Shown: positions 90 through 16,277 of the stretch, piece by piece
Numbering within the stretch: position 1 is the stretch's first letter
Layout of the letters: each line of letters starts with the position of its first letter
Source: Sphingobacterium detergens
GTDB taxonomy: Bacteria; Bacteroidota; Bacteroidia; Sphingobacteriales; Sphingobacteriaceae
Assembly (NCBI RefSeq): GCF_003610355.1
Contig: NZ_RAPY01000001.1
Coordinates: forward strand, 744,001 to 808,000
Direction of reading: 5' to 3'
DNA: 64,000 nt
Position numbers and translations under genes: made by a program
Notes under the pieces: generated by a model
The model's input: only the letters and a program-made list of their open reading frames with translations
Told to the model about the DNA's origin: nothing
Database searches by the model: none

Positions 90-1547
90 CTATTCAAAGG
101 CATTTAATTCCCCAAAACCGCCCGCATATGTTCCATAAGCTGTCAGTGTAAAGCGGAAATAACGCGCTTGCACTGGGGCATAGAAACTGATATTCCGAAG
201 TTGGGGATTCGCCGCTGTACCTGCAGGCATGCTGCCTGTATAAGAGCCTTGAACCGTCCAGTTGACCCCGTCACTGCTGCTGGCCACACGTATCGCTGTG
301 GGCGCCGAAATAAACCTCGAACCAAAGTAGTCCCAATATCGCGGCGTAAATGTAAATCCACGCACCTGTTTTGGATTTTGCATATCCACTGTAAAGGTAA
401 CTGCCGGTGGAGTGCCAAAGGCGAGTGCCGAATGCCAACCAGTTGCAAAATCATTGTCAAAGACCATGGCGGGTGTGCCTGCAGCTGCGTAATCGTTGTC
501 TGTAGAGCTTGCTGTTGCTGTCCAGCTCGTACGATCTATGCGATTGCCCGTTGGTGTAGGGTTGGCGGGATCAATATTCTGCAGTTGCACCTCCACCGAA
601 AAATAGGCTAGCCCGCGGGTTTCATGTGGCGCTACAGGCCCCTCATCGACGATACCTACGGGTAGCAGATAGCTGCGGCCCGGCACAAAACTCGTGGTAT
701 TGCGCAATACCAACGCAAAAGGCGTTGTAGCATTTAGGCTTCCACTAGCGATGGAAACGCTGGCCGGACTGAAAGCAAAGCTATTTGCCGGGAAAGCCAC
801 ATAATTTGTCTGGTTGGCCTGATTATATCCCGCCAGCAGATCCTGCCGGTCCTGTAGCGCCACCGTCAGCGCCTGACCAAAGGCTGTATTCAGCCCGGCT
901 GTCAGGTTTAGATTACCACTGATCACATCACCATTAGGGGTGCGGTTGATGATAAGCGGTACCAGGCGGTTGGTAGGTGTTCCATTGAGCTGTGTGGTAA
1001 TTGGATTAAAGGTCACCCGAAGATACATCACCTGCCGGTTGGTACTCAGTGGCAGATTGGAATCGGTACTGCTCAAACGTATCGGAACAATATAAGCTTT
1101 GCTGAAATCTAGGCCCGAAACCTGCCCCAGTCCGATTCGCAATGAATCCGCGGAGCGCAGTTCTCCGGTAGGAATACGAACCTGGCCGTTGTTTTCCAAG
1201 ACAAAAGTCCCTAGGGGAAAGCGTGTGGACACCGTATTATTGGTCTTGTCGTATGCGGCGAGCAGTGTCGTGTCTATGGTCGCCACAACCTGTACATCCC
1301 GGTCTACAGCACGGGTCAGTAATACAGGAAAGGCTGTCCCTGCCCCTGCCAGGACATTATTACGGGCAGTGACATAACTAGCTGCCCCGCTGTTGTAGTT
1401 CAAAGAACCTGCAGGCAGGTAGATGGTCAGATTTTCCGTATCAACCTGCTCTTTGGAGCAGGACGACAACAGGAAAAACAATCCCCCCAGCAAAGAAAAG
1501 AGACTCTGCAAGCGGGAGTATTTGGGCAAAAGAGGAAATATCTTCAT
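90..1547 (-). CDS. DUF1735 and discoidin-domain surface lipoprotein
   Basis: Probable surface glycan-binding lipoprotein of 485 aa. The N-terminus is a lipoprotein signal ending in LLSSC (Cys about 30). Two DUF1735-like (BT_3987_N-type) beta domains follow at roughly residues 35-175 and 195-325. The C-terminal 145 residues look like an F5/8 type C (discoidin) carbohydrate-binding module, with a typical ATASSTDND start and DNDFATGWHS strand. No catalytic motif is visible. It is the last gene of the operon, 36 bp after the GH18 gene. By analogy with Bacteroides N-glycan loci it probably holds glycan or glycoprotein at the outer surface for the GH18 enzyme and SusCD. The exact ligand is unknown. 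Confidence 0.8.
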   Translation of the reverse strand: MKIFPLLPKYSRLQSLFSLLGGLFFLLSSCSKEQVDTENLTIYLPAGSLNYNSGAASYVTARNNVLAGAGTAFPVLLTRAVDRDVQVVATIDTTLLAAYDKTNNTVSTRFPLGTFVLENNGQVRIPTGELRSADSLRIGLGQVSGLDFSKAYIVPIRLSSTDSNLPLSTNRQVMYLRVTFNPITTQLNGTPTNRLVPLIINRTPNGDVISGNLNLTAGLNTAFGQALTVALQDRQDLLAGYNQANQTNYVAFPANSFAFSPASVSIASGSLNATTPFALVLRNTTSFVPGRSYLLPVGIVDEGPVAPHETRGLAYFSVEVQLQNIDPANPTPTGNRIDRTSWTATASSTDNDYAAAGTPAMVFDNDFATGWHSALAFGTPPAVTFTVDMQNPKQVRGFTFTPRYWDYFGSRFISAPTAIRVASSSDGVNWTVQGSYTGSMPAGTAANPQLRNISFYAPVQARYFRFTLTAYGTYAGGFGELNAFE

Positions 1548-1583: not shown

Positions 1584-2579
1584 CTAATAAACGGCTGGAT
1601 TCTGAATCTGAATCCCGCGGCGCAGGTAGTAATAAGATTGCGGTGGACGCGACTTGGCATCAGCCTCGATAATATAGCCCCCAAAGCCGCCCTTTCTACC
1701 CTGTGTCGGATTCCAACTGGCCATGCCCAACACACTGCCAATGTTCACACCACCCAGCATAAAGGTGCTGCCACTGGCTCCATACTGCTGCATATTCTCG
1801 GTGACCACAAATTTCTCGGGCGGCAGTACACCATTAAAACCAAACGATTGATACCGGCTTTGCAATGCAGCAAAGCTTTGAGAATTATAGGTTTGTTGCA
1901 CCAAATAATCAATATAAGGTTCGATCCCCCGCTCATTTTCACCATCGATAATCAACAGTTTCCCCGTGGTAGATTTTGGCCCCATGTATTGCGAAAGTGC
2001 TTTAAAAAGCCGCTGTGTATAAATATCGCCACCGTCATCCTTTGGACCAAAGCCAAATATACTTCGGTCGCCATAACTCGGTTCATAATCCAGGTCAAAT
2101 CCATCCAGTTCATATTTGCTGACGGTATCAGCAATGGACTTGGCTACGCTGTCAATACTTTGCATAATCTCCATATTGGGGAAATTTTTCTGCCGCAGCT
2201 GGTCTACCCCCGAGCCAAACATCACCGAAACAAAACGGGTACCCTTCACGCGCTGGCAATAACGGAGTTCCTCCCAGTTGGCCTCATCTTTGGGCATTCC
2301 ACCCCAGAGGCTGACAATATCCATGCTATCCGGAAGCCCCAGGTATCGGGGTGCCATATCCGGGCCGATCCCGCCCGCACCGCTGGCACCCCACCAGCCA
2401 AAACAAATGGCATGGTCGCTCTTTTTATAGGCCCGCAAAGCTTCATAGTAGGCATCACTGCCAATGATCGGCTGCGTTGCGGCAAATACAATCGGTTCCG
2501 CGATATTCTGTTTGCTGCAATACTGAAAAACCAGACAGCATAACAGCGACAATACAGTTATTTTAATATATCTTTTCAT
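1584..2579 (-). CDS. GH18 endo-beta-N-acetylglucosaminidase-like enzyme
   Basis: A 331-aa exported GH18-family enzyme. The family signature DGFDLDYEP is at about residues 157-166; the final Glu is the expected acid/base of the substrate-assisted GH18 mechanism. The N-terminal hydrophobic segment ends in a Cys followed by SKQN, suggesting a lipoprotein, although the residue before the Cys (Tyr) is unusual for a lipobox. Its length and its neighbours (DUF1735 proteins, SusCD) fit the EndoF/EndoBT-like group, which cuts the chitobiose core of N-glycans, better than chitinases. The inferred role is release of glycans from glycoproteins at the cell surface. Chitin as substrate cannot be excluded from sequence alone. 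Confidence 0.82.
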   Translation of the reverse strand: MKRYIKITVLSLLCCLVFQYCSKQNIAEPIVFAATQPIIGSDAYYEALRAYKKSDHAICFGWWGASGAGGIGPDMAPRYLGLPDSMDIVSLWGGMPKDEANWEELRYCQRVKGTRFVSVMFGSGVDQLRQKNFPNMEIMQSIDSVAKSIADTVSKYELDGFDLDYEPSYGDRSIFGFGPKDDGGDIYTQRLFKALSQYMGPKSTTGKLLIIDGENERGIEPYIDYLVQQTYNSQSFAALQSRYQSFGFNGVLPPEKFVVTENMQQYGASGSTFMLGGVNIGSVLGMASWNPTQGRKGGFGGYIIEADAKSRPPQSYYYLRRGIQIQNPAVY

Positions 2580-2626: not shown

Positions 2627-3754
2627 CTATTGTGGACAGCGTACACCAGGTACCCAGGCGATATTGGTCGATGAGGTCAGGTGATTATTCTTGCCAGAAC
2701 TATCCATTGCCCGATTTCCATTGCCGTCATTCAGCTTCCAGTAGCCCAGCAGATCCGCATCTGAAGGATTTACGGCACAGACAAAAGTTCGCAGCTGCCG
2801 TGGCGTCCGCAAGCTCTTCCATATCCGAAATTCGCTGACTGTCGCACCAGTGCCGGTAGCGTAAGGTGTAATGGCACATTCGCTGAGGGTCAGTCCCGCA
2901 TAAGGAGTCTGACCCACCAGTTCCCCATTGATATAAAGCGTGACCACCCCGCTGGCATAAGTGATGGCAAAATGGTACCAGGTATTCAGCGTGGCCTTCG
3001 CCGTGGTTGTCATAAAGGCCGAACTTGGAAAGCGGATATCAATGGCGCCCTCGCTGTTGACCAAAAACTGTAAACCACAGCCGTTAAAGATATCCGAACG
3101 CCAGTTGCCAGCGACACCAAAGGCTCTGGTCATATTGAAACGGCCTTCAAAGGTAAAGTTGTTGTACGGCTTGCCATTGGCATCCGCCCCAAAAACAGCG
3201 ACGGGAACCGGCAGGTTGGCATTTTGAGCGGCAAAGCCCACCGTTGTCTTGGTGACCAGCACCAAGGCGACATCCGAGCCCGACAGCACCGGGCTGCTCG
3301 CCGGTGCGATCTTTACGGGAACCACATACTGTGCACCATCGATATATTCTGGCCATTCTCTGACCGTGACCGTAATATTCTCCTGTCCCAGTGCCGTTCC
3401 CGCTGCAATGGCCACCGAGCGGCTGGAAAGTGTGACCGCAGATTGGGGCGCCAGCTGATATTCTGTAAAATTCCGGCGATTGAAGTCATTGAGATAGTCC
3501 TGCCCCAGGATGTCCACCCGTACCTCTTCCGTCGCGCCCATGGTATAGGAAGAACCAATGGTAAGTGCTGTAGTGCCTGTACCACCATCCAAAGCCAACG
3601 TCACAACCGGGTTGTTTGCCGTCTGCCGTATAAAGACAAGATTATCAAAGTCCTGTTGCTGCTGTTGCTTACAGCCTGCAATAAAACAAGTGACTGCTCC
3701 CACGAAGATCATCCAACTAAACCAGCTCCGCATATATTGATTTATTTTGTTCAT
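2627..3754 (-). CDS. DUF1735-LamG surface lipoprotein
   Basis: Surface glycan-binding protein candidate of about 375 aa. I place the start at the Met at 3754, because it gives a clean lipoprotein signal ending in CFIAGC; the longer open frame upstream adds 29 residues of non-signal sequence. A DUF1735 domain follows the lipid-anchor Cys, and residues from about 180 form a LamG/concanavalin-like jelly roll (FEGRFNMTRAFG, TWYHFAITYASG, LYINGELVGQ). A Gln-rich patch directly after the Cys may act as a spacer or surface-export signal. It lies between SusD and the GH18 gene, the same arrangement as BT3986-like proteins of Bacteroides N-glycan loci. No catalytic residues are apparent. Confidence 0.8.
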   Translation of the reverse strand: MNKINQYMRSWFSWMIFVGAVTCFIAGCKQQQQQDFDNLVFIRQTANNPVVTLALDGGTGTTALTIGSSYTMGATEEVRVDILGQDYLNDFNRRNFTEYQLAPQSAVTLSSRSVAIAAGTALGQENITVTVREWPEYIDGAQYVVPVKIAPASSPVLSGSDVALVLVTKTTVGFAAQNANLPVPVAVFGADANGKPYNNFTFEGRFNMTRAFGVAGNWRSDIFNGCGLQFLVNSEGAIDIRFPSSAFMTTTAKATLNTWYHFAITYASGVVTLYINGELVGQTPYAGLTLSECAITPYATGTGATVSEFRIWKSLRTPRQLRTFVCAVNPSDADLLGYWKLNDGNGNRAMDSSGKNNHLTSSTNIAWVPGVRCPQ

Positions 3755-3788
3755 AATTTTGTCGTATTTAAAAAATGAATAACGCGTT

Positions 3789-5435
3789 TTAATTTCCCTT
3801 ACGGTCCCACCAAAGCCGTGTACCACCATTGTCAGGTCCACCCAAAAGTGCTATCCCTTGCGTCAGGTTGGCCTGATTCAGCTGATATTCACTGGCGGGG
3901 TAAGGTAAACGCCGCACCTGTATCGCTGTATTGACTGTACCGCCACTCTGGTTGAGGACAACAGGAAATAGCTTTGGATAACCTGTACGGCGGAATTCAG
4001 ACCAGGCTTCTTGTCCATTTGGATACATCGCGATCCATTTTTGCGTAATAATGCGTTCGAGTTTAAGTTCATTGCTTGCCCCTTCCTCCCAGCGGATTGT
4101 CAATGTCGGCAATAGTCCGGATCCGGCACCTACACTGTTGCTACCCACAGGATCCTGGTATGGAGAAGGACGACGGTCGCTGTTCTGGATATAACTATCT
4201 ACCCCCGATACGCCCCATTGCGCAAAGGAGGTCCGGATTCCATTTTCATAGAGGCTCTGTACGGTACCCCCCATATTCCAGCCACGCATGGCCCCTTCGG
4301 CACGCAGAAAATATACTTCCGCCGCAGGCATCCAGATCACATCAAAATCAGACCTCAGTACCGAAAACGGTCTGTAAAGCGAATTATCCGGCATATTGAT
4401 GCCCAGACGGATACCACGGTAGCGCCCTGCAGGATCAGCGCCACGGGTGGATGGCATAAACAAACGTGGTAATCTAGGATCCGCATAACCTGTCAGGTAA
4501 GATTCCATAATGGCGCTGAGCCTTGTTTCATTATAGGCTTCGGACAAGGTTTGCAAGGGATTGTTGTAGGTCGTTCCCTCGATCCCCTGCATGGTGGCAT
4601 TATCGGTATTCTCCGTAATCACACCATATCCGTCCTGCATGGCCTCTTCGGCATATTTTTTGGCATTGACTGGATCCACATAGGCCATCCGCATCGCCAA
4701 GCGAAGTTTTAGCGAATTGGCAAAACGGATCCACTGCCTGTAATTTCCGCGGTATACAGCATCAAAGTAGCGCAATGGTGTTGCGCCAATCTTCGCAAAC
4801 GGTTTTAAGGCGACCACAGCGGAATCCAGATCAGTGAAAAATGACTGGTAAATTTTGTCCATCGGGTCGTATGGTGAACCCAGCTCTCCCAATACCGTAC
4901 CCGTTTTAAAATAAGGGATCGGCCCAAACATATCCACCGTGCGGTGTGCAGCCTGCACTTTGATAATTTTTGCAACCGCAAGAATATCCGGACTTGCCGC
5001 CGCATAACGTGCAATGGTATCATAATTTCGTACAATATTGGTGTAATATTGGTTGAAAGGTGCACTATTCCAGGTGACGGCATTAAAATTATAGGTGGTA
5101 TGATCACCGGCAGCATTCCAGCGGTTGGCCATGCCGTGATAACCACCAAAGATGTCACCGACGAGGTTTTCGGTCAGTTGGTACGCATTGGCCGCATTGG
5201 TGCCCGTGCCCCCTACGGGAAATACACTTTCTTCCATCTGCCTAAAAAAGCCACCCAGGTACACATTGTCCTGATTGATCCGGTTTGCCGGCAAAGCATT
5301 CGGATCGGTGTTATATTTTTCAAAATTCTTGGTACAGGAAAAAAGAAATAAACTGATCAGGACAGGTAATAATCCTTGAACTACATTCGACGAGAATCTT
5401 CGTTCCTTCTTTGCGTTATGATATGTTTTCATCAT
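3789..5435 (-). CDS. SusD/RagB-family outer-membrane lipoprotein
   Basis: A 548-aa SusD-like glycan-binding lipoprotein. The signal ends in LFSC (Cys about 34), followed by the NTDPNALP motif common in the SusD-like_2 branch. The TPR-like helical body includes YFDAVYRGNYRQWIRFANSLKLRLAMRM and the C-terminal WPEAWSEFRRTGYP-type segment. It acts as the lid of the SusC transporter encoded immediately upstream; the 10-bp gap implies co-translation. Two adjacent Met codons start the frame, so the exact start is uncertain by one residue. The ligand is inferred from neighbours to be an N-acetylglucosamine-containing glycan. Confidence 0.92.
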   Translation of the reverse strand: MMKTYHNAKKERRFSSNVVQGLLPVLISLFLFSCTKNFEKYNTDPNALPANRINQDNVYLGGFFRQMEESVFPVGGTGTNAANAYQLTENLVGDIFGGYHGMANRWNAAGDHTTYNFNAVTWNSAPFNQYYTNIVRNYDTIARYAAASPDILAVAKIIKVQAAHRTVDMFGPIPYFKTGTVLGELGSPYDPMDKIYQSFFTDLDSAVVALKPFAKIGATPLRYFDAVYRGNYRQWIRFANSLKLRLAMRMAYVDPVNAKKYAEEAMQDGYGVITENTDNATMQGIEGTTYNNPLQTLSEAYNETRLSAIMESYLTGYADPRLPRLFMPSTRGADPAGRYRGIRLGINMPDNSLYRPFSVLRSDFDVIWMPAAEVYFLRAEGAMRGWNMGGTVQSLYENGIRTSFAQWGVSGVDSYIQNSDRRPSPYQDPVGSNSVGAGSGLLPTLTIRWEEGASNELKLERIITQKWIAMYPNGQEAWSEFRRTGYPKLFPVVLNQSGGTVNTAIQVRRLPYPASEYQLNQANLTQGIALLGGPDNGGTRLWWDRKGN

Positions 5436-5445: not shown

Positions 5446-8400
5446 TTAGAATTGTGCCCGAATACTGAACCCTAGACTTTTTAGGCTAGGTTGCCTGAAA
5501 TAGTCAAATCCTTGAAAGTACGTTCCTGTAGAAGGTGTGCTCTCGGGGTCGAATGGAGCCTTGTTGTACAACATAAATAGATTATTACCGATAATGGAAG
5601 CATTGATGCTTTTGATCCATTTACCCAAGTATTGCTGTGGAATGGTATAACCGAACGCCAGTTCGCGCAGCCGTATATTTGTCGCGCTATAGACATAATA
5701 GGCCAGTACACCATTGGTGCCGCTGCCCATCTGGGTATAGTACTGTTCCACATTTGGATAAGGGGCACCATTGACGGTGACATAACCGAGATCACGCGCA
5801 TCTGCCGTGGTCTGCGAAACGCCATAGGCATCTAACATGGCCTGCGTTGCAGACACCCCCACGCCGCCAAATCGTCCAAAAACCAAAAAGCTTAAATTGA
5901 AATTCTTATAGCGGAAACTGTTGTTAAAACCTATTGTATAGTTGGGGTCTGCATTTCCCGCATAGAAATACTCCCGGTTATCCACAGATACACCCGGGTT
6001 CAGCGCGATGTAGCCATTTTGGTCCCGTGCAAGTTTTGATGTGATGTAAATTGCACTCATATTGCCACCAACAGCGACCTTTTGCTGATAGCTGCCGCCG
6101 CCCGCAATATTGATGGTATCTGTTGCTACACGTCGGCCATCGGCTCCGACAGTGGAATACAGCTCTTTGGCGGTATTCCTGTTTAGCGTAAAGACCGCAT
6201 TGCTATTCCAGTTGACTGCACCGAGCGTTCCGTTATAGCCCAGATTGGCCTCAATCCCTTTGTTATTCACGCGTCCCGCATTCAGCAAGAAGGATTGATT
6301 TCCACCACTGGTCGCAGACTGCGTGATTGTAAAAATCTGATCATAGGTATTGGTATTGTACAGGGTGACATCCAAATTGATTTTGTCCTTCAAAAATTTG
6401 AGGTTCAGCCCCGCTTCCCAGGCGTCGGTACGCTCCGGACGGAGTGGATAGCGCAGTGGTGTATTCTGGTTGATACCACCCGTTGCGAGCAGGTACACCT
6501 GTGGGCCACCTTCGTAAAGACGCGGTGGATTGCCGACCTGTGAAAAGTTGGCCCGAACTTTTAGGTAGGACAAGGCATTGGATTTGATTTCCGGAAAGGC
6601 ATCCGTCAATATCGCTGATACACCGATGGATGGATAGGTCAGATACAGCTTGGAATCCTTGTTGAAATACAATTGCGAATACCAGTCGTAACGGTAGGAA
6701 CCGTCGAGGAACAGCATATTTTTATAAGCAAGGCTAAAATTTCCGAGCAGCGACTGAAAGCTGGTCTTGTCCGGCTGACGGGCCGTTCCAGAGCCCGCCC
6801 CTGTGCCTGTAGATCCACTGATATTATCTGTTGTGAACACATTGGGCGGTGAACCCTGCGCGATGCCACCACCTGCGGCCAGAAAACGGGAGGATGATTC
6901 CACACGTGAACCGCCCACATTGGCTGTCAGGGTAAAATCGACAAAGCTCTTGTTGATATTGGCCAAAAGGTCTCCATACAGCGCCTGGGTATTGTTTTCA
7001 TTGATGAAAAAAGCACCACCATACCCTGCAAAGAGCATATCTGTGCTGGCATACATCTTACGGTCTGAGGTTAACTGCGTACGGTCCAGCTTGGCCCTTC
7101 CAGTGATATTCAACCAGTCATTGACCTTATATTTTAACGAACCACCCAACAACAATCTTGTTGTATTATTTTCCAAAGGAATACGGTAGGCTGTCCAGTA
7201 TGGATTCTGCATCTGAAAAGGTGCACCACCAAATGGCCAGTACTGCGTAGGAAACAAACGGTCAGGATTATAGCGCTCAAATGCTTTGATGGCTTCAAAA
7301 TTTCCGCCCGGAGGAAAGAGGTAAACGGGAACAATCGGATTATGATACAATCCTTGTGCAACCATATTCCGTTCCATTTGCGATAGGTACATACCATTCA
7401 AGTCTAGCTGCAGTTTATCGTCCAGAAAACTTGATGTATTCCGGAAGGAGAAATTATAGCGGCTCAGGTTGTTATTGGGAATAATCCCCCGGCCCTGTGT
7501 CATACCACCCGAAAAGAAGGTCTGGTTATTTTCTTTACCCGTATCAAATGTAAAACCGGTCATGGAGGTCGCTCCAGTCTGGAAAAAGTCGGCAGGACGA
7601 TAGGTTGAGGGTTCGGTCAATTTTGGTCCCCAGCTGAAATAACTGCCCTCGTCACTACGGCCATAGGTGTTCTGAAATTTGGGCATGACGAGTGGCGTCA
7701 TAAAATTGGTGTTGTTCATCAGGCTAAGGCTTGTTCTACCCTTTTGTCCCGACTTGGTATTAATGATGATCACACCATTTTGTCCCTGACTTCCATAGAG
7801 CGCTGCCGCCGCCGCACCGGTCAGGGTGGAGATGCTTTCAATATCATCCGGATTAATCATCGAAATAATATCACTGCCCGTGCTCGCAGAGAAGATATCA
7901 TTAATCTGTCCCGCAGGCATATTGGTTCGCAAATCTGTTGTATTGAGCACCGGAACACCGTCAATAACGTACAAAGCATTGTTGTTCCCGGTAATGGATT
8001 TGGTACCACGCATGACGACGCGGGTCGCACCACCGATTCCCGAGGAACTGGCATTGATCGTTACCCCGGCAATTTTACCCGTTAGACTATTGACGAAATT
8101 CGGATCCCGGTTGCGCGTCAGTTCCTCACCCTTGACATCCTGTATATTATAGGTCAGTGAGCGGGTCGACTTTTTTATACCCAGGGCCGTGACAACGACA
8201 GCATCCAGCACATTGTCACCGGGAGAAAGTGAAATGGAAATTCGGTCCTGAAGCGATACAATGGTATAATCCTTTGTATCGTAGCCTACAAAGCGCACTT
8301 CAAGCACATCATTTACTTTCGCCTGGGGCAAGGTAAAGAGTCCGTCCTTGTCTGTATCTGTACTGAGATTTTTACCTTTTAGAAAGACGGTCGCCCCCTG

Positions 8401-8805
8401 CAGCGGTTTTCCACCGGGATCAGTCACTTTACCCGAGATCCCCTGTTGCTGATTCATCGTCCTTGTTGACACTGGCGACTCCTTTTTCTGGCTATCGCGA
8501 TTGATCATAATTGCGTTATCCTTGATGTTGTATTGCAGATCTGTGCCATCCAGCAGCTTGCTCATGACCTGATGGATTGTCGCCTGATCAAAATCAACAC
8601 TGATCGCCCTTTTGTCGTTAAATATCTGATTAGAATAAAGGATATTATAGCCTGTTTCTTTATTGATTGCTTTAATCAGATCAGCCACTTTGATGGACTG
8701 TTTTTTGAGTGTAAATAGCGTCTGTCCGGCCGCCGAAACTGTACAATAGACGACCAGTACAGCTGTGCACATGGCTCTAGCTAGTTTAAATATGGTTAAC
8801 CTCAT
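5446..8805 (-). CDS. SusC-type TonB-dependent transporter with STN domain
   Basis: Outer-membrane transporter of 1119 aa. Residues about 1-27 are a signal peptide. A secretin/TonB N-terminal (STN) domain at about 28-100 (IKVADLIKAINKETGYN) marks it as a signalling transporter. A carboxypeptidase-D-like domain lies at about 122-205 (ISGKVTDPGGKPLQGATV), then the plug (about 215-350, with VIDGVPV and GQNGVIIINTKSG), then the 22-strand barrel ending in SLGFSIRAQF. The STN domain should contact the FecR protein encoded 92 bp upstream, so that substrate import is reported to the ECF sigma factor. Together with the downstream SusD it forms the uptake complex. The family call is secure; the substrate is inferred. 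Confidence 0.95.
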   Translation of the reverse strand: MRLTIFKLARAMCTAVLVVYCTVSAAGQTLFTLKKQSIKVADLIKAINKETGYNILYSNQIFNDKRAISVDFDQATIHQVMSKLLDGTDLQYNIKDNAIMINRDSQKKESPVSTRTMNQQQGISGKVTDPGGKPLQGATVFLKGKNLSTDTDKDGLFTLPQAKVNDVLEVRFVGYDTKDYTIVSLQDRISISLSPGDNVLDAVVVTALGIKKSTRSLTYNIQDVKGEELTRNRDPNFVNSLTGKIAGVTINASSSGIGGATRVVMRGTKSITGNNNALYVIDGVPVLNTTDLRTNMPAGQINDIFSASTGSDIISMINPDDIESISTLTGAAAAALYGSQGQNGVIIINTKSGQKGRTSLSLMNNTNFMTPLVMPKFQNTYGRSDEGSYFSWGPKLTEPSTYRPADFFQTGATSMTGFTFDTGKENNQTFFSGGMTQGRGIIPNNNLSRYNFSFRNTSSFLDDKLQLDLNGMYLSQMERNMVAQGLYHNPIVPVYLFPPGGNFEAIKAFERYNPDRLFPTQYWPFGGAPFQMQNPYWTAYRIPLENNTTRLLLGGSLKYKVNDWLNITGRAKLDRTQLTSDRKMYASTDMLFAGYGGAFFINENNTQALYGDLLANINKSFVDFTLTANVGGSRVESSSRFLAAGGGIAQGSPPNVFTTDNISGSTGTGAGSGTARQPDKTSFQSLLGNFSLAYKNMLFLDGSYRYDWYSQLYFNKDSKLYLTYPSIGVSAILTDAFPEIKSNALSYLKVRANFSQVGNPPRLYEGGPQVYLLATGGINQNTPLRYPLRPERTDAWEAGLNLKFLKDKINLDVTLYNTNTYDQIFTITQSATSGGNQSFLLNAGRVNNKGIEANLGYNGTLGAVNWNSNAVFTLNRNTAKELYSTVGADGRRVATDTINIAGGGSYQQKVAVGGNMSAIYITSKLARDQNGYIALNPGVSVDNREYFYAGNADPNYTIGFNNSFRYKNFNLSFLVFGRFGGVGVSATQAMLDAYGVSQTTADARDLGYVTVNGAPYPNVEQYYTQMGSGTNGVLAYYVYSATNIRLRELAFGYTIPQQYLGKWIKSINASIIGNNLFMLYNKAPFDPESTPSTGTYFQGFDYFRQPSLKSLGFSIRAQF

Positions 8806-8897
8806 AATTTTTGAAGTATTTTTTAAAAATTGGTTTGTTCTAAGCTTTAATTGGGTTAAAAATGAAGGTTTTGTTTCCAGTAAATCATAGGCAATGG

Positions 8898-10010
8898 TTA
8901 TGGGTTTACGATAATTGTTTTATGCTGTATACTGATTTTGAGATCACTTGCCCCCTGCAGTAGTTCAAGGATCTTTTCAACATCGGCATAGCGCGATATT
9001 TTTCCACTAAATGTGGTGTGTTTGCTGGCTTCGGCTTTATTGATATAAATGACATCCACGTTATACCAACGGGCCACTCTGGTCAGGATAGACTCCAAAG
9101 ATTCATCCCTAAAAATAAATTCATTGTGTTTCCAATCTACGTAGTCATCAACATCCACCTGCGAGACCAAGATCTGTTTTCCTTTGACCCGCGACTGTTG
9201 TCCCGGCACTAATACACGCTCTTTGTTGATTTCTACTTTTCCTTCCAGTAGCGTCGTAATGCTATTATTGAGGTCATAAGTATTCACATTGAAAACCGTA
9301 CCCAGGACACGGACCTCCTGCTGGTCGCTCTTGACAATAAAAGGCCGTTGTTTATCCTTAGCCACCACAAAGTAGCCCTCGCCCTTTAATTCTACCGTAC
9401 GCAGTTTATCATGTGTCAGGTCTGTGGGAAAACGCAGTGAAGAAGCGGCGTTGAGCGTCACTTCCGAACCATCGGAAAGTTCAATCTGGAATTGTCCACC
9501 CCGAGGTGTCTCTATCACCTGATATTCACCCGGGATAACGGCATCTTTGCTGACCACATATTTTAGTTGACCATCGCTGGTGCGGGTCACGGTGATTCCC
9601 GATGCGCTAACAGCCTGTCCGGCTGAAAGTTCGATTTTCTTGCCATTGGCAAGCGTCAGGACAGCCTTGTCAGAGCCGGGAACGACTTTGTCGCCAATCT
9701 GTTGAACGATCGTATTGGAATGCTTTTGGTTGATACGCCAGACCGATACGCTGGCCAGCGCCAGGATCAGAACTGCGGCAGCATAAGGCAGATAACGTTT
9801 CCAGCCGATCTGGCGGATAGGCTGCGCTTGTCTCGATGCGATCTTCGCGTCCAGTTGTTTGAGCAAGAGCTGCTTCTGCTTGGCCGAAAGCGCTACCCGA
9901 TCAGCTTCGGGCAGTGTCTCTATCCAGAGCTCCAATAACATTCTTTCCTCTTCTGAACAAGAGTTATTGGCGTACTTTTCTAAAAGTATGTCTAACTTAT
10001 TTACATCCAT
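8898..10010 (-). CDS. FecR-family anti-sigma factor
   Basis: A 370-aa inner-membrane anti-sigma regulator. The ATG at 10010 is preferred; an in-frame TTG at 10019 would add three residues. The N-terminal cytoplasmic helix bundle (about 1-70) would bind the sigma factor. One membrane helix (about 72-92, YAAAVLILALASVSVW) follows, then the periplasmic FecR domain (about 115-270, including TPRGGQFQIELSDGSEV and VLGTVFNVNTY). A DUF4974-type C-terminal domain with SGKISRYADVEKILELLQ should meet the STN domain of SusC. The gene precedes SusC by 92 bp. Its cognate sigma gene is not adjacent but lies 4.6 kb upstream, separated by GH95 and GH20, which is unusual for this gene pair. Confidence 0.93.
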   Translation of the reverse strand: MDVNKLDILLEKYANNSCSEEERMLLELWIETLPEADRVALSAKQKQLLLKQLDAKIASRQAQPIRQIGWKRYLPYAAAVLILALASVSVWRINQKHSNTIVQQIGDKVVPGSDKAVLTLANGKKIELSAGQAVSASGITVTRTSDGQLKYVVSKDAVIPGEYQVIETPRGGQFQIELSDGSEVTLNAASSLRFPTDLTHDKLRTVELKGEGYFVVAKDKQRPFIVKSDQQEVRVLGTVFNVNTYDLNNSITTLLEGKVEINKERVLVPGQQSRVKGKQILVSQVDVDDYVDWKHNEFIFRDESLESILTRVARWYNVDVIYINKAEASKHTTFSGKISRYADVEKILELLQGASDLKISIQHKTIIVNP

Positions 10011-10031
10011 AATTGGCAACTTATACTATGA

Positions 10032-10093
10032 TGTTGCACAAGTCGGCCTTTGGTAGTAGAAAAAAATGAAATTATTTTTGGGAGAGCAGATAA
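10032..10093. repeat. 62-bp direct repeat, copy 1
   Basis: Identical over all 62 positions to 14613-14674. In this copy it sits between the GH95 stop and the fecR start. Its last 22 bases match the final codons of the sigma-factor gene (LLSQK and stop). The next 39 bp (10094-10132) look like a diverged sigma-gene tail: read on the minus strand in the same frame they give SDQ...YLLSQK-stop. This is best read as a duplication left when the GH20-GH95 block entered between sigma and fecR. Confidence 0.92.
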
Positions 10094-10132
10094 AGCTGAT
10101 TACAATGGCTTTGGTCAGATCTGGCCGGATTA

Positions 10133-12607
10133 CTACACCCGGATCGTTTTAACCTGACCATTGATTTTTACCTGTATTATTTTTTGAACTGGCGAATAGA
10201 TTTTATAGTTCCGTACTTTCCCATTTTGCCATTCCAGATCCACAGTCAAATTACCTTCTGCTTTCAAGCCTTTGATACTTCCGTCCTGCCATGCCGCAGG
10301 CAAAGCTGGCAGGAGCTGTATGATACCGTTTTTATCTGTTTGCAAAAGCATCTCTGCAATAAACCCGGCAAGGGCAAGCGATGTATCAATTTGCCATACC
10401 GGGTACCACTCGCCTTCGGCAGTGGTAAAATAAGCTTCATCTTCTTTTTTTATTTTACCGGCTGGAACATGGTTGTAACTCAGTAAGTTTTCAAAACCTG
10501 CCACATTAATGATGTCATTAAATAATTTGTCAGCTTTTGCGGCTTCATGCAGCCGGATGCGACAGATCATACGTAGCGCCAATGACCAGTTGCCTGCCGT
10601 ATAAATATCGCTATGCGGAACCACTTTGTATTGACGGGCTTCGCCCCTTAATTCCAATGTTTTTTTGACGGCATTGGTCAATGTGTTGTCATCGGCACCA
10701 ATCTGTTTAGCGGGCCATACCGCGTATAAATGAGCAATATGCCGGTGGTTGCATTCGGGATCATCAATATCAGCTTCCCACTCCTGCAATTGTCCCAGAC
10801 GCCCTATTTTGAAAGGCATCAATTGCGCCAGTTTTGATTCAATGGTATGGACCAATGCGCTATCCGTTTGTAATATTTTTGCCGCTTCGATTGTGTTCTG
10901 AAACAGATCGGTAAGCATTTGTATATCCTGGTAAGCACATGGTATATTGCCTACATCTTCCGCAAAGGAACTGCCTGAGGCGACTAATTTTCCATCACGT
11001 ATAAAGGCACCATGTTCAGCAGAAACACTTGGTGCTACGATTAATTTCCCCTGATAGGGAGTCAAATTTTGCAGCCAAAATTGTGTCGCACCTTTTAATA
11101 AAGGGTAGGCGGTGTGACTCAAGTAATTTTTATCCTGTGTATACGCAAAATGCCGCCACAGGTAATGGCAATGCCATGCCGATCCCATGGGGAACATGCC
11201 CCAGATCAGCTCACTTCCCGGTGCGGCATGGCCCCAGATATTGCCCACCGTATGACTTACCCATCCGTCTGTCCCATAATATGCCTTAGCAACTGCCTGT
11301 CCGGGTTTTTCCAGGCTTTTTATCCAATCAATATACGGATGCATGCAATCGTCCAGCCCAACGGCATTTGCACTGTAATAATTCATTTGCAGATTGATAT
11401 TGGACTGGTAGTTGCCCGACCATTGTGCCGACTCCGTCATGTTCCAGCCCCCCTGTAAATTGGCAGGCAAAAAGCCTTTGCGGGAACTGGCGATCAGCAG
11501 ATACCTGCTGAGGTTAAAATACAATACTTTCAACGCTACATCATCCTGCTTTGTCTTGTATGCCGCCCAGCGTTCGTTGGTGGGCAGCGCTTCCCCCATC
11601 CTATTTCCTTTTAACGTAAAGCTGGTGCGGTTGTATAATTTTTTATGGTCGGCTATATGCGTTTTCTTTAACTCCGCATAAGGTATTGATTTTATTTTCC
11701 TAATGGTTTCTCCTGTGCGTTGCTCCGGGTTGTTCCCTTTAAACAAAGGAGCCACTGCGTCATACTCCGTCGCCGATGCCATCCTGATCGTTAGTTCATC
11801 CACTTGATCAATAACCAGGTCATTTCCTTTTAGATAGACTTTGCCACCCGTATGGACAACATGTAGTTTAAGACTAAATTTCTGCTGGTTGCTATTGACA
11901 GTTCCCTTTATTTCATAAATATTGTTTTGATAGGTAACAACGCTCTGTTTCTGAAACAGCTCCCATTGCAGTGTTGCCGTAATGGCTCCCTTTTGAGAAG
12001 CAGTAAAGCGACATACAGCGGCATTGTGTGGATAAGAACAAAAATATTCCCGCTGATACCTAATTCCATCTATTTCATAAGCCACGGTTCCAATGGCATT
12101 GGCCAGACTAAGCTTGCGTGTATAATGGGTGGCATCCTCGCCATGTGCAAAATTTATTGACAATATACCATAAGCAGAAAAGTATCCAAATGCACTGGTA
12201 TCGCCCATAAATTTTGAACTTACCAGCGCATCTGCCTCTTTTAATTTATCGATTTCATTCGCTGTAATAAGCTGTCTTATTTTTTGCAGGTTGTCTTTAC
12301 CGCCGGGCTTTATGCCGAAATTATAATTGGCATCCTGACCTGGGCCACCTGTCCACAAGGTTTTATCCGTAATGGCAAATTTTTCAATGCCTATACCGCC
12401 CAGAAACGAAATTCCCAGGCCGCCATTGCCAATATGTAAGGCTTGGCTGTTCCAGTACCTGCCCGGCTCTTTATACCATAGCAAATGGTTGTAATCTGTT
12501 GCTATATCCAGGTCTGCCAACAGGCTCTCCGAAATACTGCTCCCAAATACCTTATTTTGCGCCAATACACTTAACCCGATCCATTTTATAAACGTATGTC
12601 TTTTCAT
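10133..12607 (-). CDS. GH95-family alpha-L-fucosidase-like enzyme
   Basis: An 824-aa exported glycosidase of family GH95. The start has a weak Tat/Sec-like signal (FIKWIGLSVLAQNKVFG). The N-terminal beta domain contains PGRYWNSQALHIGNGGLGISFLGG. The (alpha/alpha)6 barrel has the typical NLQGGWN and NINLQMNYY segments, and the catalytic-region motif EWEADIDDPECNHRH lies at about residues 608-622. Family members remove alpha-1,2-linked L-fucose by inversion; some act on alpha-L-galactose. Next to GH20 and the GH18 PUL it probably trims fucosylated host-type or plant glycans in the periplasm. GH20 lies 27 bp upstream in the same operon, and the pair appears inserted between the sigma and fecR genes. 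Exact linkage specificity cannot be read from sequence. Confidence 0.86.
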   Translation of the reverse strand: MKRHTFIKWIGLSVLAQNKVFGSSISESLLADLDIATDYNHLLWYKEPGRYWNSQALHIGNGGLGISFLGGIGIEKFAITDKTLWTGGPGQDANYNFGIKPGGKDNLQKIRQLITANEIDKLKEADALVSSKFMGDTSAFGYFSAYGILSINFAHGEDATHYTRKLSLANAIGTVAYEIDGIRYQREYFCSYPHNAAVCRFTASQKGAITATLQWELFQKQSVVTYQNNIYEIKGTVNSNQQKFSLKLHVVHTGGKVYLKGNDLVIDQVDELTIRMASATEYDAVAPLFKGNNPEQRTGETIRKIKSIPYAELKKTHIADHKKLYNRTSFTLKGNRMGEALPTNERWAAYKTKQDDVALKVLYFNLSRYLLIASSRKGFLPANLQGGWNMTESAQWSGNYQSNINLQMNYYSANAVGLDDCMHPYIDWIKSLEKPGQAVAKAYYGTDGWVSHTVGNIWGHAAPGSELIWGMFPMGSAWHCHYLWRHFAYTQDKNYLSHTAYPLLKGATQFWLQNLTPYQGKLIVAPSVSAEHGAFIRDGKLVASGSSFAEDVGNIPCAYQDIQMLTDLFQNTIEAAKILQTDSALVHTIESKLAQLMPFKIGRLGQLQEWEADIDDPECNHRHIAHLYAVWPAKQIGADDNTLTNAVKKTLELRGEARQYKVVPHSDIYTAGNWSLALRMICRIRLHEAAKADKLFNDIINVAGFENLLSYNHVPAGKIKKEDEAYFTTAEGEWYPVWQIDTSLALAGFIAEMLLQTDKNGIIQLLPALPAAWQDGSIKGLKAEGNLTVDLEWQNGKVRNYKIYSPVQKIIQVKINGQVKTIRV

Positions 12608-12634
12608 TGTTCTGCTTCGTGGTTTTGTTGGAAT

Positions 12635-14521
12635 TTACTTCGCTCTTGTTTCCAGTTCAGTACGTGGGGCAATTAAAAGTTTTCCTGCAGGTACCGATCC
12701 CTTAAATGCTTGTGCCCTTAATTGGTACATCCCGTTGGGAATGGCGACAGGCGTACCTGTGTACTTCAAGGAAGTTGTGTCGGGATTGGTATTATCCAAG
12801 GTATAATAAATAGCTAAGCCGTCGATATCTGTTTCCAGCGAAACCAGCAATTGTTTTTGTGTATCGTGTTTTGCTATTGCCAGTATATCAAAAGCCGCTG
12901 TTGAATAATTGATCCGGGCCTGATCCAACAACTTAAAATGTGCCGGTAATTTTTGTTGAAAACCCGGCCAGTTCTGCTTTGTCATGGGCGACCAAAAAAC
13001 TTCTGCTAAGGCTAGTGCACGCGGCCAGGTCATGTATTCAGCATGTTTGCCGCTGGGGACAGACTCTGTCCATAAATTCCCTTGTCCACCCAAAACCAGG
13101 CTACTGTCCACACCGGCGGGAACAGGATTCCATAGATAAGAATTTTTTAAACGCAGCATGCTATAGGTATCTGGTTCCAATAAAGGATCGCCTTGGTATA
13201 AATCCAGATAGGTATGCATATCGGGGGTAAGAATGACCTTGTGCCCCTGTTTTGCCGCCTCAATAGCACCCTGTACACCTTGCCAACTCATTACCGTTGC
13301 ATCCGGTGCCAGACCACCTTCGAGGATCTCGTTCCAACCTATAATTTTTTTCTGGTATTTTTTAACCATTTTCTCCATTCGTTTTATAAAATAGCTCTGT
13401 AATTCATGTTCGGTTTTAATACCTTGCTGTTTCATAAAATCCTGGACTACGGCCGAACGCTGCCAGAAATATTTCGTACACTCATCACCACCGATATGTA
13501 TGTATTGTCCCGGGAACAAAGCTGCAACTTCTTTCATTACTTTTTCAAGAAAAGCATATACGCGATCGTCTGCCGGATTTAATGTATTATCGTCAATATT
13601 ATAAAATTTGCTACCGGGATTCACCATATAGTTATACCCCGTAGCCGATAAATAAGGATAAGCGGCAATAGCAGCAAGCGAGTGACCAGGTACATCGATT
13701 TCGGGCACGACGGTTATATTTCTTGCAGCTGCATAAGCGACTATTTCTTTAATTTCTTCTTGCGTATAGTAGCCGCCATCGGTAGGTTTTTCGTCTTTTT
13801 GCGGGGCTGTATAGGACCACCATCGCCCTGTTCTTGGTACCCGCCAAGCCCCGACTTCTGTTAAGCGAGGCAGCGATTTTATTTCAATGCGCCAACCTTG
13901 GTCGTCGGTTAGATGCCAGTGAAACACATTGTATTTGTAACGGGCCATATCATCAATAAATTTCTTTACAAAATCCGTTGAAAAGAAATGACGGCTTACA
14001 TCCAGCATCAGGCCACGCCACTGAAACCTGGGATAGTCTGTAATTTCCACTACCGGTAAACTTAATTGTTGCTGTTGTGGGCCGTTTCCTGCCTGGCACA
14101 GCAATTGCCGAAAGGTTTGCAGCCCGTTGAATAGTCCTGCCGGTTTACGCGCCTGTAATATGACCTTGTTTTTTGTAATAGATAACTGATACCCTTCGTC
14201 ATTATTTATATTATTCAAAGAAGGGTTCAACAAAAGGCTGATGGTTGAAGTAGATTTTTCCGATCCGTTAGCTATCGCTAACGTAGTACCGTTCAATTCA
14301 GCAATCCATTTGTTGAGATGCTCGGCGAGCGGTTTAAGTTCTGTATGACTTTGGGGTATCACAATGGAAGTACCCGCATCAATCGTAAACGTTCCCTCAC
14401 CCTGCGTATACAATACAGGTTCTGGAATAATGGCGGGTTTTGTTTGTGCTGTAACCATACTGTTCAAGCTGATTAACAACAAAGTCAGGAGCAAATGGTT
14501 CTTTAAAAAAGCTATATTCAT
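12635..14521 (-). CDS. GH20 beta-N-acetylhexosaminidase
   Basis: A 628-aa exported exo-hexosaminidase. The signal peptide ends near SMVTAQ. A GH20b beta-alpha domain (about 30-155) precedes the TIM barrel, with FQWRGLMLDVSRHF, FHWHLTDDQGWRIEIK and the catalytic pair Asp-Glu in HIGGDEC at about residues 343-349. The C-terminus (about 540-620) is a small beta domain (YYTLDNTNPDTTSLKYTG) resembling a chitobiase/beta-hexosaminidase C-terminal domain. It should release terminal GlcNAc or GalNAc from oligosaccharides imported by SusCD, complementing the endo-acting GH18. It is transcribed just before GH95, and 131 bp separate it from the sigma-factor stop. Confidence 0.92.
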   Translation of the reverse strand: MNIAFLKNHLLLTLLLISLNSMVTAQTKPAIIPEPVLYTQGEGTFTIDAGTSIVIPQSHTELKPLAEHLNKWIAELNGTTLAIANGSEKSTSTISLLLNPSLNNINNDEGYQLSITKNKVILQARKPAGLFNGLQTFRQLLCQAGNGPQQQQLSLPVVEITDYPRFQWRGLMLDVSRHFFSTDFVKKFIDDMARYKYNVFHWHLTDDQGWRIEIKSLPRLTEVGAWRVPRTGRWWSYTAPQKDEKPTDGGYYTQEEIKEIVAYAAARNITVVPEIDVPGHSLAAIAAYPYLSATGYNYMVNPGSKFYNIDDNTLNPADDRVYAFLEKVMKEVAALFPGQYIHIGGDECTKYFWQRSAVVQDFMKQQGIKTEHELQSYFIKRMEKMVKKYQKKIIGWNEILEGGLAPDATVMSWQGVQGAIEAAKQGHKVILTPDMHTYLDLYQGDPLLEPDTYSMLRLKNSYLWNPVPAGVDSSLVLGGQGNLWTESVPSGKHAEYMTWPRALALAEVFWSPMTKQNWPGFQQKLPAHFKLLDQARINYSTAAFDILAIAKHDTQKQLLVSLETDIDGLAIYYTLDNTNPDTTSLKYTGTPVAIPNGMYQLRAQAFKGSVPAGKLLIAPRTELETRAK

Positions 14522-14612
14522 ATCTTAAACTCTTGTAGATAGATAAATATATAAAATAAACAACAGTAATAGGAAATTGTCTGTTGCTCGTGTGGGTCAA
14601 CCTATGCGATGG

Positions 14613-14674
14613 TGTTGCACAAGTCGGCCTTTGGTAGTAGAAAAAAATGAAATTATTTTTGGGAGAGCAGATAA
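14613..14674. repeat. 62-bp direct repeat, copy 2
   Basis: Perfect match to 10032-10093. Here it covers the last 22 bases of the sigma-factor gene and 40 bases downstream of its stop. This is probably the original location: joined directly to the sequence after copy 1, it would put sigma and fecR about 60 bp apart, the usual close spacing. Confidence 0.92.
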
Positions 14675-15255
14675 CTGATGATGACGATGACTTTGGCCTG
14701 GTCTGAACTTATCTTGGAGCGAAAGATTTTAAGCACATTGTTAATCTGCTTTTTGACCGTTTTTTCAGATATATTAAGTTCTTCGGCTATTTCACGATAG
14801 GAAAGATAATCCTCTCTGCTCATGCGGAAAACCTGCTGCATCTTGGGTGGCAGTTTTGCAATTTCACGTTCGATAAAGTCTTTCACCTGTTTTTCCTGAA
14901 TCACATCCAAAATGGGGTCGTAGAAAGCGCTGAGGTGCGCTACCAGGCTCTCGGCATATTTTTCCCTGGTTTTCTGTTTGCGTAGGCTAAGCAGCATCTG
15001 CTTGCGTACCGACATATAGAGCCATGCTAATGGCGTCTCCAGCCGAAGCTCGTGCCGGCGCATCCACAATGAAGCGAATACTTCCTGTACAAAATCATTC
15101 GTTTCCTCCTCATCCACATGCAGGCGCATGGCGTATTGAAGGAGGTCTTGAAGATGTCTTAAATAAAGTTCAGTAAAGCCAGCATAATCATCCTGGCCAA
15201 TTAAAACCATTAATTGTTGATCAGAAAGTTGGCTATAATCTATCTCTTTTTGCAT
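14653..15255 (-). CDS. FecI-like ECF sigma-70 factor
   Basis: About 200 aa; the ATG at 15255 is chosen because it begins directly before the sigma region-2 helix (QLMVLIGQDDYAGFTELYLRHL). The open frame upstream to 15405 codes for nothing recognisable and would include the promoter. Region 2 (about 10-80) contains NDFVQEVFASLWMRR. Region 4 (about 125-185) contains LPPKMQQVFRMSREDYLSYREIAEELNISEKTVKKQI. Family members start PUL transcription when FecR releases them. The operon order is sigma, GH20, GH95, fecR, susC, susD and lipoproteins, so it likely autoregulates the whole set. Confidence 0.92.
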   Translation of the reverse strand: MQKEIDYSQLSDQQLMVLIGQDDYAGFTELYLRHLQDLLQYAMRLHVDEEETNDFVQEVFASLWMRRHELRLETPLAWLYMSVRKQMLLSLRKQKTREKYAESLVAHLSAFYDPILDVIQEKQVKDFIEREIAKLPPKMQQVFRMSREDYLSYREIAEELNISEKTVKKQINNVLKIFRSKISSDQAKVIVIISYLLSQK

Positions 15256-15291
15256 GGTAGTACTGTCAGATACTAATGTAGTAAAAGTAAT

Positions 15292-15299
15292 CAAATATA
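15292..15299 (-). promoter_or_regulatory. Putative -7 element of the sigma-factor gene
   Basis: The minus strand reads TATATTTG, matching the Bacteroidota -7 consensus TAnnTTTG, with predicted start near 15286 and about 30 nt of leader before the ATG at 15255. No good -33 TTTG is seen at the usual distance. Confidence 0.45.
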
Positions 15300-15404
15300 G
15301 TTTTTCTCCTGAAATATTCTTAAAAATCTTAAGCCCTGCCTTGAGAAGACGCAGCAACTTGTCGCGAAGCCCAGCCCTGCTTCCAAAGCTATGGGCGTAC
15401 ACCA

Positions 15405-15722
15405 TTAAAACTTATGGTTTATACCAAATTGTATGATTTGATTGATCAGCGGAAGCAGTTCTTTTCCCATATCTGTCAGTGTATATTCTACTTTTGGCGG
15501 GATTTCGGCAAAGGACTTTTTATGAACGAATCCCTTATCGCATAAAAATTTAAGTTGGCTGATCAGCATTTTTTCACTGATCCCTACGATACAACGCTTA
15601 AGTTCTCCATAGCGGATTGTCCGTTCATTGATCTGGAAAATAATAAGCATTGTCCATTTTCCACCGATGATTTCAAGTGTTTTTCGTAAGGGACAGCTCT
15701 CGTCAGAAATATTTATGTTCAT
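15405..15722 (-). CDS. HxlR-family winged-helix regulator
   Basis: About 105 aa. The start at 15722 (MNINISDESCPL) is chosen over 15758 because HxlR proteins begin shortly before the conserved CPLRKTLEIIGGKWTMLIIF block, which is present in full. The rest matches the winged helix (RYGELKRCIVGISEKMLISQLKFLCDKGFVHKKSF, PPKVEYTLTDMGKELLPLI). The CP Cys near the N-terminus is the residue that senses electrophiles or oxidation in some family members. It diverges from the NTF2-like gene at 15849, whose promoter it probably controls from the 126-bp gap. It ends 149 bp before the sigma gene and is not obviously part of that operon. Confidence 0.9.
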   Translation of the reverse strand: MNINISDESCPLRKTLEIIGGKWTMLIIFQINERTIRYGELKRCIVGISEKMLISQLKFLCDKGFVHKKSFAEIPPKVEYTLTDMGKELLPLINQIIQFGINHKF

Positions 15723-15848
15723 TTTATATTGTTGATAATCAACTATTCTTAATTTCAAGTAAGTACCCTACCCTAAGGTAAGTACTTGTATATAAGTGTG
15801 CTAATTTAGACATTTGTATACTATTTAAACCATTAAAATTAAAATGAT

Positions 15849-16253
15849 ATGTCAAAAAATGTAGCGATCGTTCAATCCTATTTTGATGCAGTAGCCAAAG
15901 GAGACTTTGATACCATAGGGAGTTTATTTGCCGATGATGTTATATGGCACCAGCCAGGTGATGGTATCCAATCTGGAACATATAATGGAAAGGAAGCCGT
16001 ATTTGCCCATTTAGGTAATTTTATGAAATGGAGCAACGGTACTTTTGTCATTGATGAAATCGAATATTTAAGTAGCAATGCTGATCTTGTCAGTGCTGCG
16101 ATCCACTTTAAAGCGGAAAAAGGAGGTTTACATCTTGCAATGAAGGGTATGGATTTATTGCGGGTCGAAGACAACAAGATCAAGGAAGTGTGGTTGTTTT
16201 CAGAGAAAATAGCGGATGAAGATGCTTTTTGGAACAGAGCTTCAAAAGATTAA
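15849..16253 (+). CDS. SnoaL/NTF2-like small enzyme or binding protein
   Basis: A 134-aa single-domain protein of the NTF2-like superfamily: an N-terminal helix (VAIVQSYFDAVAKGDFDTIGSLFADDVIWHQPGDG), then a cone-shaped beta sheet with FHFKAEKGGLHLAMKGMDLLRVEDNKIKEVWLFSEK. No signal peptide, so cytoplasmic. Members include ketosteroid-isomerase-like and detoxifying proteins, and no specific reaction can be assigned. It is divergent from the HxlR gene and is followed by a strong terminator, so the pair forms a self-contained regulator/target unit. The DVIWHQPGDG motif is widespread in this subfamily. Confidence 0.85.
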   Translation: MSKNVAIVQSYFDAVAKGDFDTIGSLFADDVIWHQPGDGIQSGTYNGKEAVFAHLGNFMKWSNGTFVIDEIEYLSSNADLVSAAIHFKAEKGGLHLAMKGMDLLRVEDNKIKEVWLFSEKIADEDAFWNRASKD

Positions 16254-16277
16254 ATTTTCAATTGATAATAAGTAGCT

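Follow-up and report, generated by a model that had tools for sequence, protein, structure and literature searches.

The window analysed here is a stretch of 64,000 nucleotides from Sphingobacterium detergens (NCBI RefSeq assembly GCF_003610355.1, contig NZ_RAPY01000001.1, positions 744,001 to 808,000 of the forward strand; coordinates below count from its first letter). Its minus strand carries a polysaccharide utilization locus (PUL) with genes for a FecI-type extracytoplasmic function (ECF) sigma factor, a FecR anti-sigma factor and a SusC/SusD importer pair, and two glycosidase genes of families GH20 and GH95 lie between the sigma gene and fecR. Sequence comparison indicates that this locus is probably a hybrid PUL, whose control half and import half were joined at the predicted Ton box of susC, and that a cassette with the two glycosidase genes likely recombined into the sigma/fecR junction, duplicating a predicted promoter.

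Ancestry of the control and import halves

We refer to the sigma/fecR/SusC-head locus type of genome G033 and of the first locus of genome G093 (G093a) as type A, and to the barrel/SusD/downstream type of G076 and of the second locus of G093 (G093b) as type B; G093 has both types. Relatives were sought in samples of 93 genomes of the genus, 399 of the family and 400 of the order, which overlap and include the genome of S. detergens itself. Pfam searches recognised ECF regions 2 and 4 in the sigma factor, a FecR_C domain in FecR and, in SusC, an STN domain (residues 52-100) placed ahead of CarbopepD_reg (122-204) and Plug (214-344). The features of SusC and of the genes that follow it are:

8181..8805, minus strand: signalling head of SusC, type A, with STN and CarbopepD_reg (Pfam; identities)
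8166..8199, minus strand: putative joint of the recombination, on the codons of the predicted Ton box, LDAVVVTALGI (best split; nucleotide alignment)
5446..8180, minus strand: plug and barrel of SusC, type B (93% identity to G076, 88% to G093b, 43% to G033)
3789..5435, minus strand: SusD-like lipoprotein, type B (90% to G076, 82% to G093b, 41% to G033)
2627..3841, minus strand: BT_3987-like_N / Laminin_G_3 protein, type B (Pfam; identities)
1584..2579, minus strand: GH18 protein, BT1044-like / EndoS-like, type B (Pfam; identities)
90..1547, minus strand: BT_3987-like_N / F5_F8 type C protein, type B (Pfam; identities)

The import half resembled type B throughout, with identities to G076 of 82% for the complete SusC, 90% for SusD, 83% for the LamG-type protein and 80% for GH18, and to the second locus of G093 of 78, 82, 68 and 85%, respectively; in the type-A loci, SusC and SusD were about 45% and about 41% identical to those of the window. 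The sigma and fecR genes upstream in the type-B loci (G076, G093b) showed about 37% and 32-38% identity to the window's. The nearest sigma genes among the 93 genus genomes were those of G093 (82%) and G033 (81%), and fecR was 68-69% identical to its counterparts in these two genomes. The SusC head, comprising the signal peptide, STN and CarbopepD_reg, shared 60% identity with G033 and G093a versus 29% with G076 and 22% with G093b. No ortholog of the type-B sigma factor was detected in the S. detergens genome (best match 40%, versus 76% in G093 and 74% in G096).

Heads and barrels were then compared over 190 pairs formed by 20 SusCs, retained from 50 extracted open reading frames (ORFs); the set excludes 16 ORFs (from loci of other genera and from two Sphingobacterium loci), duplicate retrievals of a single gene, the near copy G060 (the same as G023 in 1118 of 1120 letters) and G012, which has a broken frame before the motif. 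The window paired with G076 (29% head, 93% barrel) and with G093b (22/88) gave the most discordant values in one direction, and the window paired with G033 or G093a (60/43) the most discordant in the opposite one. A head tree of 18 rows, from which the STN-less G027 and G085 were left out, placed the window with G033 and G093a (support 98/96) and rejected its grouping with G076 and G093b (approximately unbiased (AU) test, p 3.5e-66). The barrel tree, of a quick kind, showed the reverse grouping and rejected that of the head (AU p 2.9e-40). The single best split within susC fell at 8199-8166, and none of 2000 permutations reached its score. We place the joint at the Ton box by motif, because the codons for LDAVVVTALGI lie at this split and the Ton box of BT1763 is located at DEVVVTG in the excerpted text of PMC7782687. 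Head and barrel thus have conflicting histories, which meet at one point on the predicted Ton box, as a natural head swap would leave. The head tree also hints, with weak support, at a further head exchange within type B (the G093b head being nearer to G096), which we do not claim.

Both parent types have a SusD of the PF12741 family, BT1044-like GH18 enzymes and BT_3987-like proteins (the type-B evidence being a SusD scan in the window and GH18 scans in both the window and G076). Therefore the exchange would have joined two loci of one class, presumably one directed at N-glycans. Two barrels of the SusC set, G027 and G085, gave no STN match in Pfam; that of G027 (L180, 6701-9892) is 63% identical to the window's, and neither sigma nor fecR of the window has a counterpart in the stretch fetched around it: the same importer lineage, apparently without this kind of control.

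Further hybrids were found among 55 database SusCs that we scored out of 120 matches listed (P0244-P0299, less one in which no Ton box was recognised). The same hybrid occurs in P0244 from Sphingobacterium sp. BIGb0165 (head 96%, barrel 99%) and in P0245 (head 68%, barrel 91%). P0289 from S. spiritivorum, which represents 25 member sequences, shares 91% identity with G033 as far as residue 212 (DAVVVTALGIKR) and 44% beyond it, with STN, CarbopepD_reg and Plug in place according to Pfam. As judged at the protein level, P0289 is a second natural head exchange, in which a type-A head sits on a third barrel at the same motif.

The repeat pair and the sigma/fecR junction

The features of the control half, including the two glycosidase genes, are:

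14653..15255, minus strand: type-A ECF (FecI-type) sigma factor gene, 200 aa (Sigma70_r2 and r4 in Pfam; 81-82% to the sigma factors of G033 and G093)
14613..14674, minus strand: repeat copy 2, with 22 nt of the sigma gene and 40 nt of conserved element, leading into GH20 (repeat comparison; junction conservation)
14613..14624, minus strand: motif ACTTGTGCAACA in copy 2, predicted promoter element (exact-motif search)
14522..14612, minus strand: GH20 leader, donor type (matches, with the repeat, the GH20 leader of G096)
12635..14521, minus strand: GH20 beta-hexosaminidase gene, 628 aa (PF00728, 393 bits; 91% relative in G096)
10133..12607, minus strand: GH95 (alpha-L-fucosidase family) gene, 824 aa (PF22124, 411 bits)
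10094..10132, minus strand: decayed sigma-gene tail directly after the GH95 stop, putative donor side (shuffles; control windows)
10032..10093, minus strand: repeat copy 1, leading into fecR (repeat comparison)
10032..10043, minus strand: motif ACTTGTGCAACA in copy 1, predicted promoter element (exact-motif search)
8898..10010, minus strand: fecR, type-A anti-sigma factor gene, 370 aa (FecR and FecR_C in Pfam; 68-69% to G033 and G093)

Read along the minus strand, the order is sigma, copy 2, GH20, GH95, the 39-nt decayed sigma tail, copy 1, fecR and susC, followed by susD, the LamG/BT_3987-like gene, GH18 and a further BT_3987-like gene. An earlier note on this DNA had described GH20 and GH95 genes between sigma and fecR, with a perfect 62-bp repeat at both ends of the block made up of the last 22 bases of the sigma gene and 40 downstream bases, and a diverged sigma tail at 10094-10132. 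Pfam agreed on both enzyme genes, and the two direct copies (10032-10093 and 14613-14674) were identical, within a longer pair of 77 nt at 95% (10017-10093 / 14598-14674). With the sigma stop codon at 14653-14655, the 62 bp consist of the gene's final 22 bases and 40 non-coding bases of the conserved type-A sigma/fecR junction element, and sigma and fecR are not adjacent, the gap from the sigma stop to the fecR start being 4642 nt. The similarity of the 39 nt at 10094-10132 to a sigma tail was equalled in 1 of 3000 shuffles and in none of 623 cassette windows.

Queried with 119 nt including copy 1, the S. detergens genome (6.73 Mb) gave three places at E <= 0.001: the two copies and, with 78% identity over 49 nt, one further sigma/fecR junction, a paralogous one. 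A dispersed repeat unrelated to sigma genes, which the earlier note had named as an outcome that would count against it, is thereby rejected: the genome holds two full copies only, and their sequence is that of the sigma junction.

Outside the identical 62-bp core the flanks of the two copies differ, and each resembles a sigma/fecR junction. Copy 2 has the intact sigma gene on one side and a GH20 leader of the G096 type on the other, and the GH20-side stretch beyond it resembles a fecR leader (0 to 5 of 1000 shuffles, depending on the length tested), a feature absent from the earlier note; copy 1 has a fecR leader of the G033 type on one side and the decayed sigma tail on the other. Three of the four flanks could be assigned by homology as a crossover predicts, the fourth being the decayed sigma tail. 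Since flanks are exchanged around an identical core, we propose a single crossover between a resident and a donor junction. Over the 62 positions, the core agrees with G033 at 53, with G093 at 55, with the paralog at 52 and with a relict junction in G096 at 51; had the two copies drifted as far (51 to 55 of 62), the probability of 62 identical bases would be about 5.5e-6 to 6e-4.

The earlier note had also suggested looking for relatives with sigma and fecR close together and no GH20/GH95, and this is what all nine other type-A loci found (in eight other genomes, plus the paralog of the own genome) look like, the sigma and fecR matches ending 67-93 nt apart. At E <= 1e-85 fecR was found in nine of the 399 family genomes, own genome included, all of one genus.

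The junction itself is conserved. In seven of the nine non-window junctions (G093 and G090 were omitted as near copies of G033 and G018), mean pairwise identity was 84% in the core, bounded by the sigma stop codon and the last base of ACTTGTGCAACA, compared with 54% in the sigma tail, 62% in the rest of the spacer and 72% in the fecR start. A non-coding core that is more conserved than both adjoining genes points to a cis-acting site, and the element is probably the sigma factor's own promoter, as predicted from this conservation. The 12-nt motif ACTTGTGCAACA, which forms the very end of the repeat's 40 non-coding bases, is exact in eight of the nine other type-A junctions; the string TACTTGT, seen by eye, is common to the type-A element and three aligned type-B junctions. 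Because it carries this element, the repeat is more than a scar. Exact ACTTGTGCAACA occurs four times in the genome (in both copies, at the paralogous sigma/fecR junction and once inside an ORF), and a role as a wider regulon signal was rejected for want of any sign of further targets among these four. Between the window and G096 the GH20 leader (14522-14612) is conserved as far as the start codon, and it may contain a separate start site.

Origin of the cassette and weighing of alternatives

At E <= 1e-220, GH20 was found in two of the 93 genus genomes, its own and G096 (91% identity). The window's repeat and the flank on its GH20 side align with the leader of the G096 gene at 80% identity over 125 nt (E 4e-24), and a second piece aligns at 89% over 44 nt. 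In G096, GH20 is preceded by a decayed sigma tail and a junction, whose motif reads ACTTCTACAATA, without a sigma gene, and a junction-GH20 link therefore exists apart from sigma. The search for a donor of the sigma relict, proposed in the earlier note, yielded a donor-like locus: the same GH20 stands after a decayed junction copy in G096, and the stretch 10094-10132 itself is too short to trace a donor. In G096 this GH20 with its type-A junction relict lies directly upstream of a locus (L125, 11601-18620) with type-B sigma, fecR and head (sigma 74% to G076) on a barrel 48% identical to that of G076, and a gene of the PD-(D/E)XK nuclease family (PF12784; L125, 8106-9191) is next upstream of the relict.

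GH95 has a different distribution from GH20, which has a 91% relative in the genus. The best relative of GH95 was 42% identical in the genus sample (E-value limit applied); at E <= 1e-200 none of the 398 other family genomes matched, the own gene being the only hit, and at E <= 1e-180 the 399 other genomes of the order sample gave a single match of 44%. A GH95 donor was accordingly found in none of the three samples within these E-value limits, and the nearest database relative among the matches listed was 70% identical. A plasmid-borne donor was rejected: a search of 72,556 plasmid records matched GH20 in 208 and GH95 in 71, every one of them below 60% identity. The GC content at third codon positions (GH95 44.7, GH20 41.5, versus 47-56 in eleven other genes or gene parts) is slightly low in both enzyme genes, too weak an argument for their origin.

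Several observations weigh against a hybrid locus with a recombined cassette. SusC heads evolve faster than barrels in general (median head-minus-barrel difference -20 points), although a general rate difference cannot account for a resemblance to type A in particular. With window genes up to 33469 as queries, the fetched stretches showed no synteny with either parent type on the upstream side of the sigma gene; the module therefore has no defined left edge, and either half may have moved. Outside the hybrids the best head identity is 60%, so that no direct donor of the type-A module was seen; likewise, the best GH95 in G096 is 36% identical, and there is no junction-GH20-GH95 donor there. The type-A junction of G079 differs from the motif at 2 of 12 positions. 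The sigma relict of 30-39 nt is too short for placement in a tree or for tracing a donor by itself. The case against free drift of the two copies is not overwhelming at the probabilities given above, and their identity could instead stem from later gene conversion between older repeats.

The last point is the core of an alternative that we consider unlikely, namely an old tandem pair of sigma-fecR junctions whose flanks decayed while gene conversion kept the 62-bp cores identical, without any circle or foreign cassette. In its favour, the side of each copy that faces the cassette shows diverged homology to the junction, gene conversion can occur between direct repeats at a distance of 4.6 kb, and G096 has the junction-GH20 link outside the window's locus. 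However, it is the leader of GH20 only, and not GH95, that is seen with a junction elsewhere, GH95 has no relative above 44% in the three samples within the E-value limits, and the lack of an insert in all nine other type-A loci favours a later arrival in the window.

The insert-free sites and the repeat structure fit the proposal of the earlier note, in which sigma, fecR and SusC are native and the GH20-GH95 cassette alone arrived by homologous recombination. Its insertion part stands, with uninterrupted relatives to support it. As an account of the whole locus it is contradicted and very improbable, because the orthologous loci of G076 and G093 carry the other sigma/fecR type and the other SusC head, so that the sigma/fecR pair is not this locus type's own, and because the trees reject a single history.

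A transposon or a site-specific integrase, with the 62 bp as attachment site at a gene 3' end, has in its favour that the repeat restores the end of the sigma gene, as attachment sites often do. We give it hardly any weight, since GH95 and GH20 account for the long ORFs of the insert (the remaining ones listed are nested inside both on the opposite strand) and since the flanks are diverged homologs of one junction, which an attachment site does not need. Pfam and the ORF list showed no recombinase gene in the insert or among the neighbours scanned, in line with the earlier statement that no transposase is involved. Repeats and paralogous susC genes can mislead assemblers, but we consider an assembly artefact, at the short repeat or in susC, extremely unlikely; the same hybrid in BIGb0165 and in one other database sequence speaks against it for the susC join.

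The SusC/RagA shufflons and invertible promoters of Bacteroides fragilis operate with invertases and inverted repeats. As proposed for the window, recombination there alters which outer-membrane importer is made; in contrast, the window shows direct repeats and homologous joints with no recombinase among the neighbours scanned. An invertible shufflon was rejected, as positions 8000-18000 gave eight inverted pairs, none longer than 28 nt or more than 85% complementary.

The genes next upstream of sigma are of HxlR, SnoaL and GH127 type. A second glycan locus follows at 16674-33469, with GH127, GH2, GH43, DUF3823, SusD, SusC and a hybrid two-component regulator, and no sigma or fecR was found among the nine proteins scanned.

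Proposed mechanism and relation to known systems

According to the hybrid model with a recombined cassette, a unit carrying junction-GH20-GH95, most likely a circle or a tandem, would have recombined with the resident sigma/fecR junction, and one crossover in the 62-bp core would have left a copy at each end with the flanks swapped, one ahead of GH20-GH95 and the other ahead of fecR-susC. A glycan entering the type-B barrel would then be signalled via the type-A STN head to the type-A FecR, which would release the type-A sigma factor, and this would activate both copies of the element. The duplicated element would thus control an added hexosaminidase step (GH20) and an added fucosidase step (GH95), and uptake and both enzymes would likely come under one borrowed switch. 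As the head would have moved with its own fecR and sigma, their contacts would stay matched, while the barrel would set the glycan.

Matched contacts are expected from laboratory chimeras of the TonB-dependent transducers PupB and PupA (Koster et al., 1994, as summarised in the excerpted review PMC9249621), in which PupBA kept the transport of PupA and signalled via the PupB domain. The reverse chimera PupAB transported but lost signalling, so a swap alone is no guarantee of it; the same excerpts state that the signalling head contacts the C-proximal part of FecR. The likeness lies in a signalling domain of one receptor placed on the barrel of another, with separable specificities. Those chimeras, as described there, were made by hand from siderophore receptors of Pseudomonas, whereas the window would hold a natural one, in a glycan importer and together with its own sigma and anti-sigma genes.

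In loci controlled by ECF sigma factors, the SusCs have STN domains with a part in anti-sigma signalling (excerpts of PMC7782687), and PUL16 and PUL72 of Bacteroides thetaiotaomicron are given as PULs with ECF sigma, FecR and STN-SusC in the available part of PMC11180146. The window shares with such Bacteroidota PULs, as far as these two sources portray them, the ECF sigma, anti-sigma, STN-bearing SusC, SusD and GH18-type enzymes. It differs in that two enzyme genes separate sigma from fecR and the junction element is duplicated, and in that its control and import halves are of different ancestry. The excerpts of PMC7782687 also place an N-terminal extension (NTE) ahead of STN in all cases, whereas STN precedes CarbopepD_reg in the window's SusC; this order, the reverse of the published one, was seen in all six STN-bearing SusCs scanned. 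Among the matches listed in titles and abstracts of the open-access literature, a scope with subscription papers mostly outside it, no description of a natural SusC head exchange was found.

More tentatively, and with somewhat less conviction than for the locus itself, we suggest that Sphingobacterium glycan loci may be rewired in the manner of plug-in modules, with two fixed joints. At the Ton box of susC, importers would exchange a complete unit of sigma, anti-sigma and STN head; at the sigma/fecR junction, recombination inside the sigma factor's own promoter would bring in enzyme genes along with a working copy of it. The Ton box could serve as a recurrent natural swap joint because it has to stay conserved in every SusC. 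In Bacteroidota, importer loci are numerous and separately switched, which raises the question of how one of them can acquire another switch and avoid a phase in which the parts do not fit. If the reading is true, joint transfer of sigma, anti-sigma and the fitting head, with the joint at a kept motif, would answer this question, and at the sigma/fecR joint enzyme genes could join a regulon without a transposase, by way of the conserved junction element of the regulator itself.

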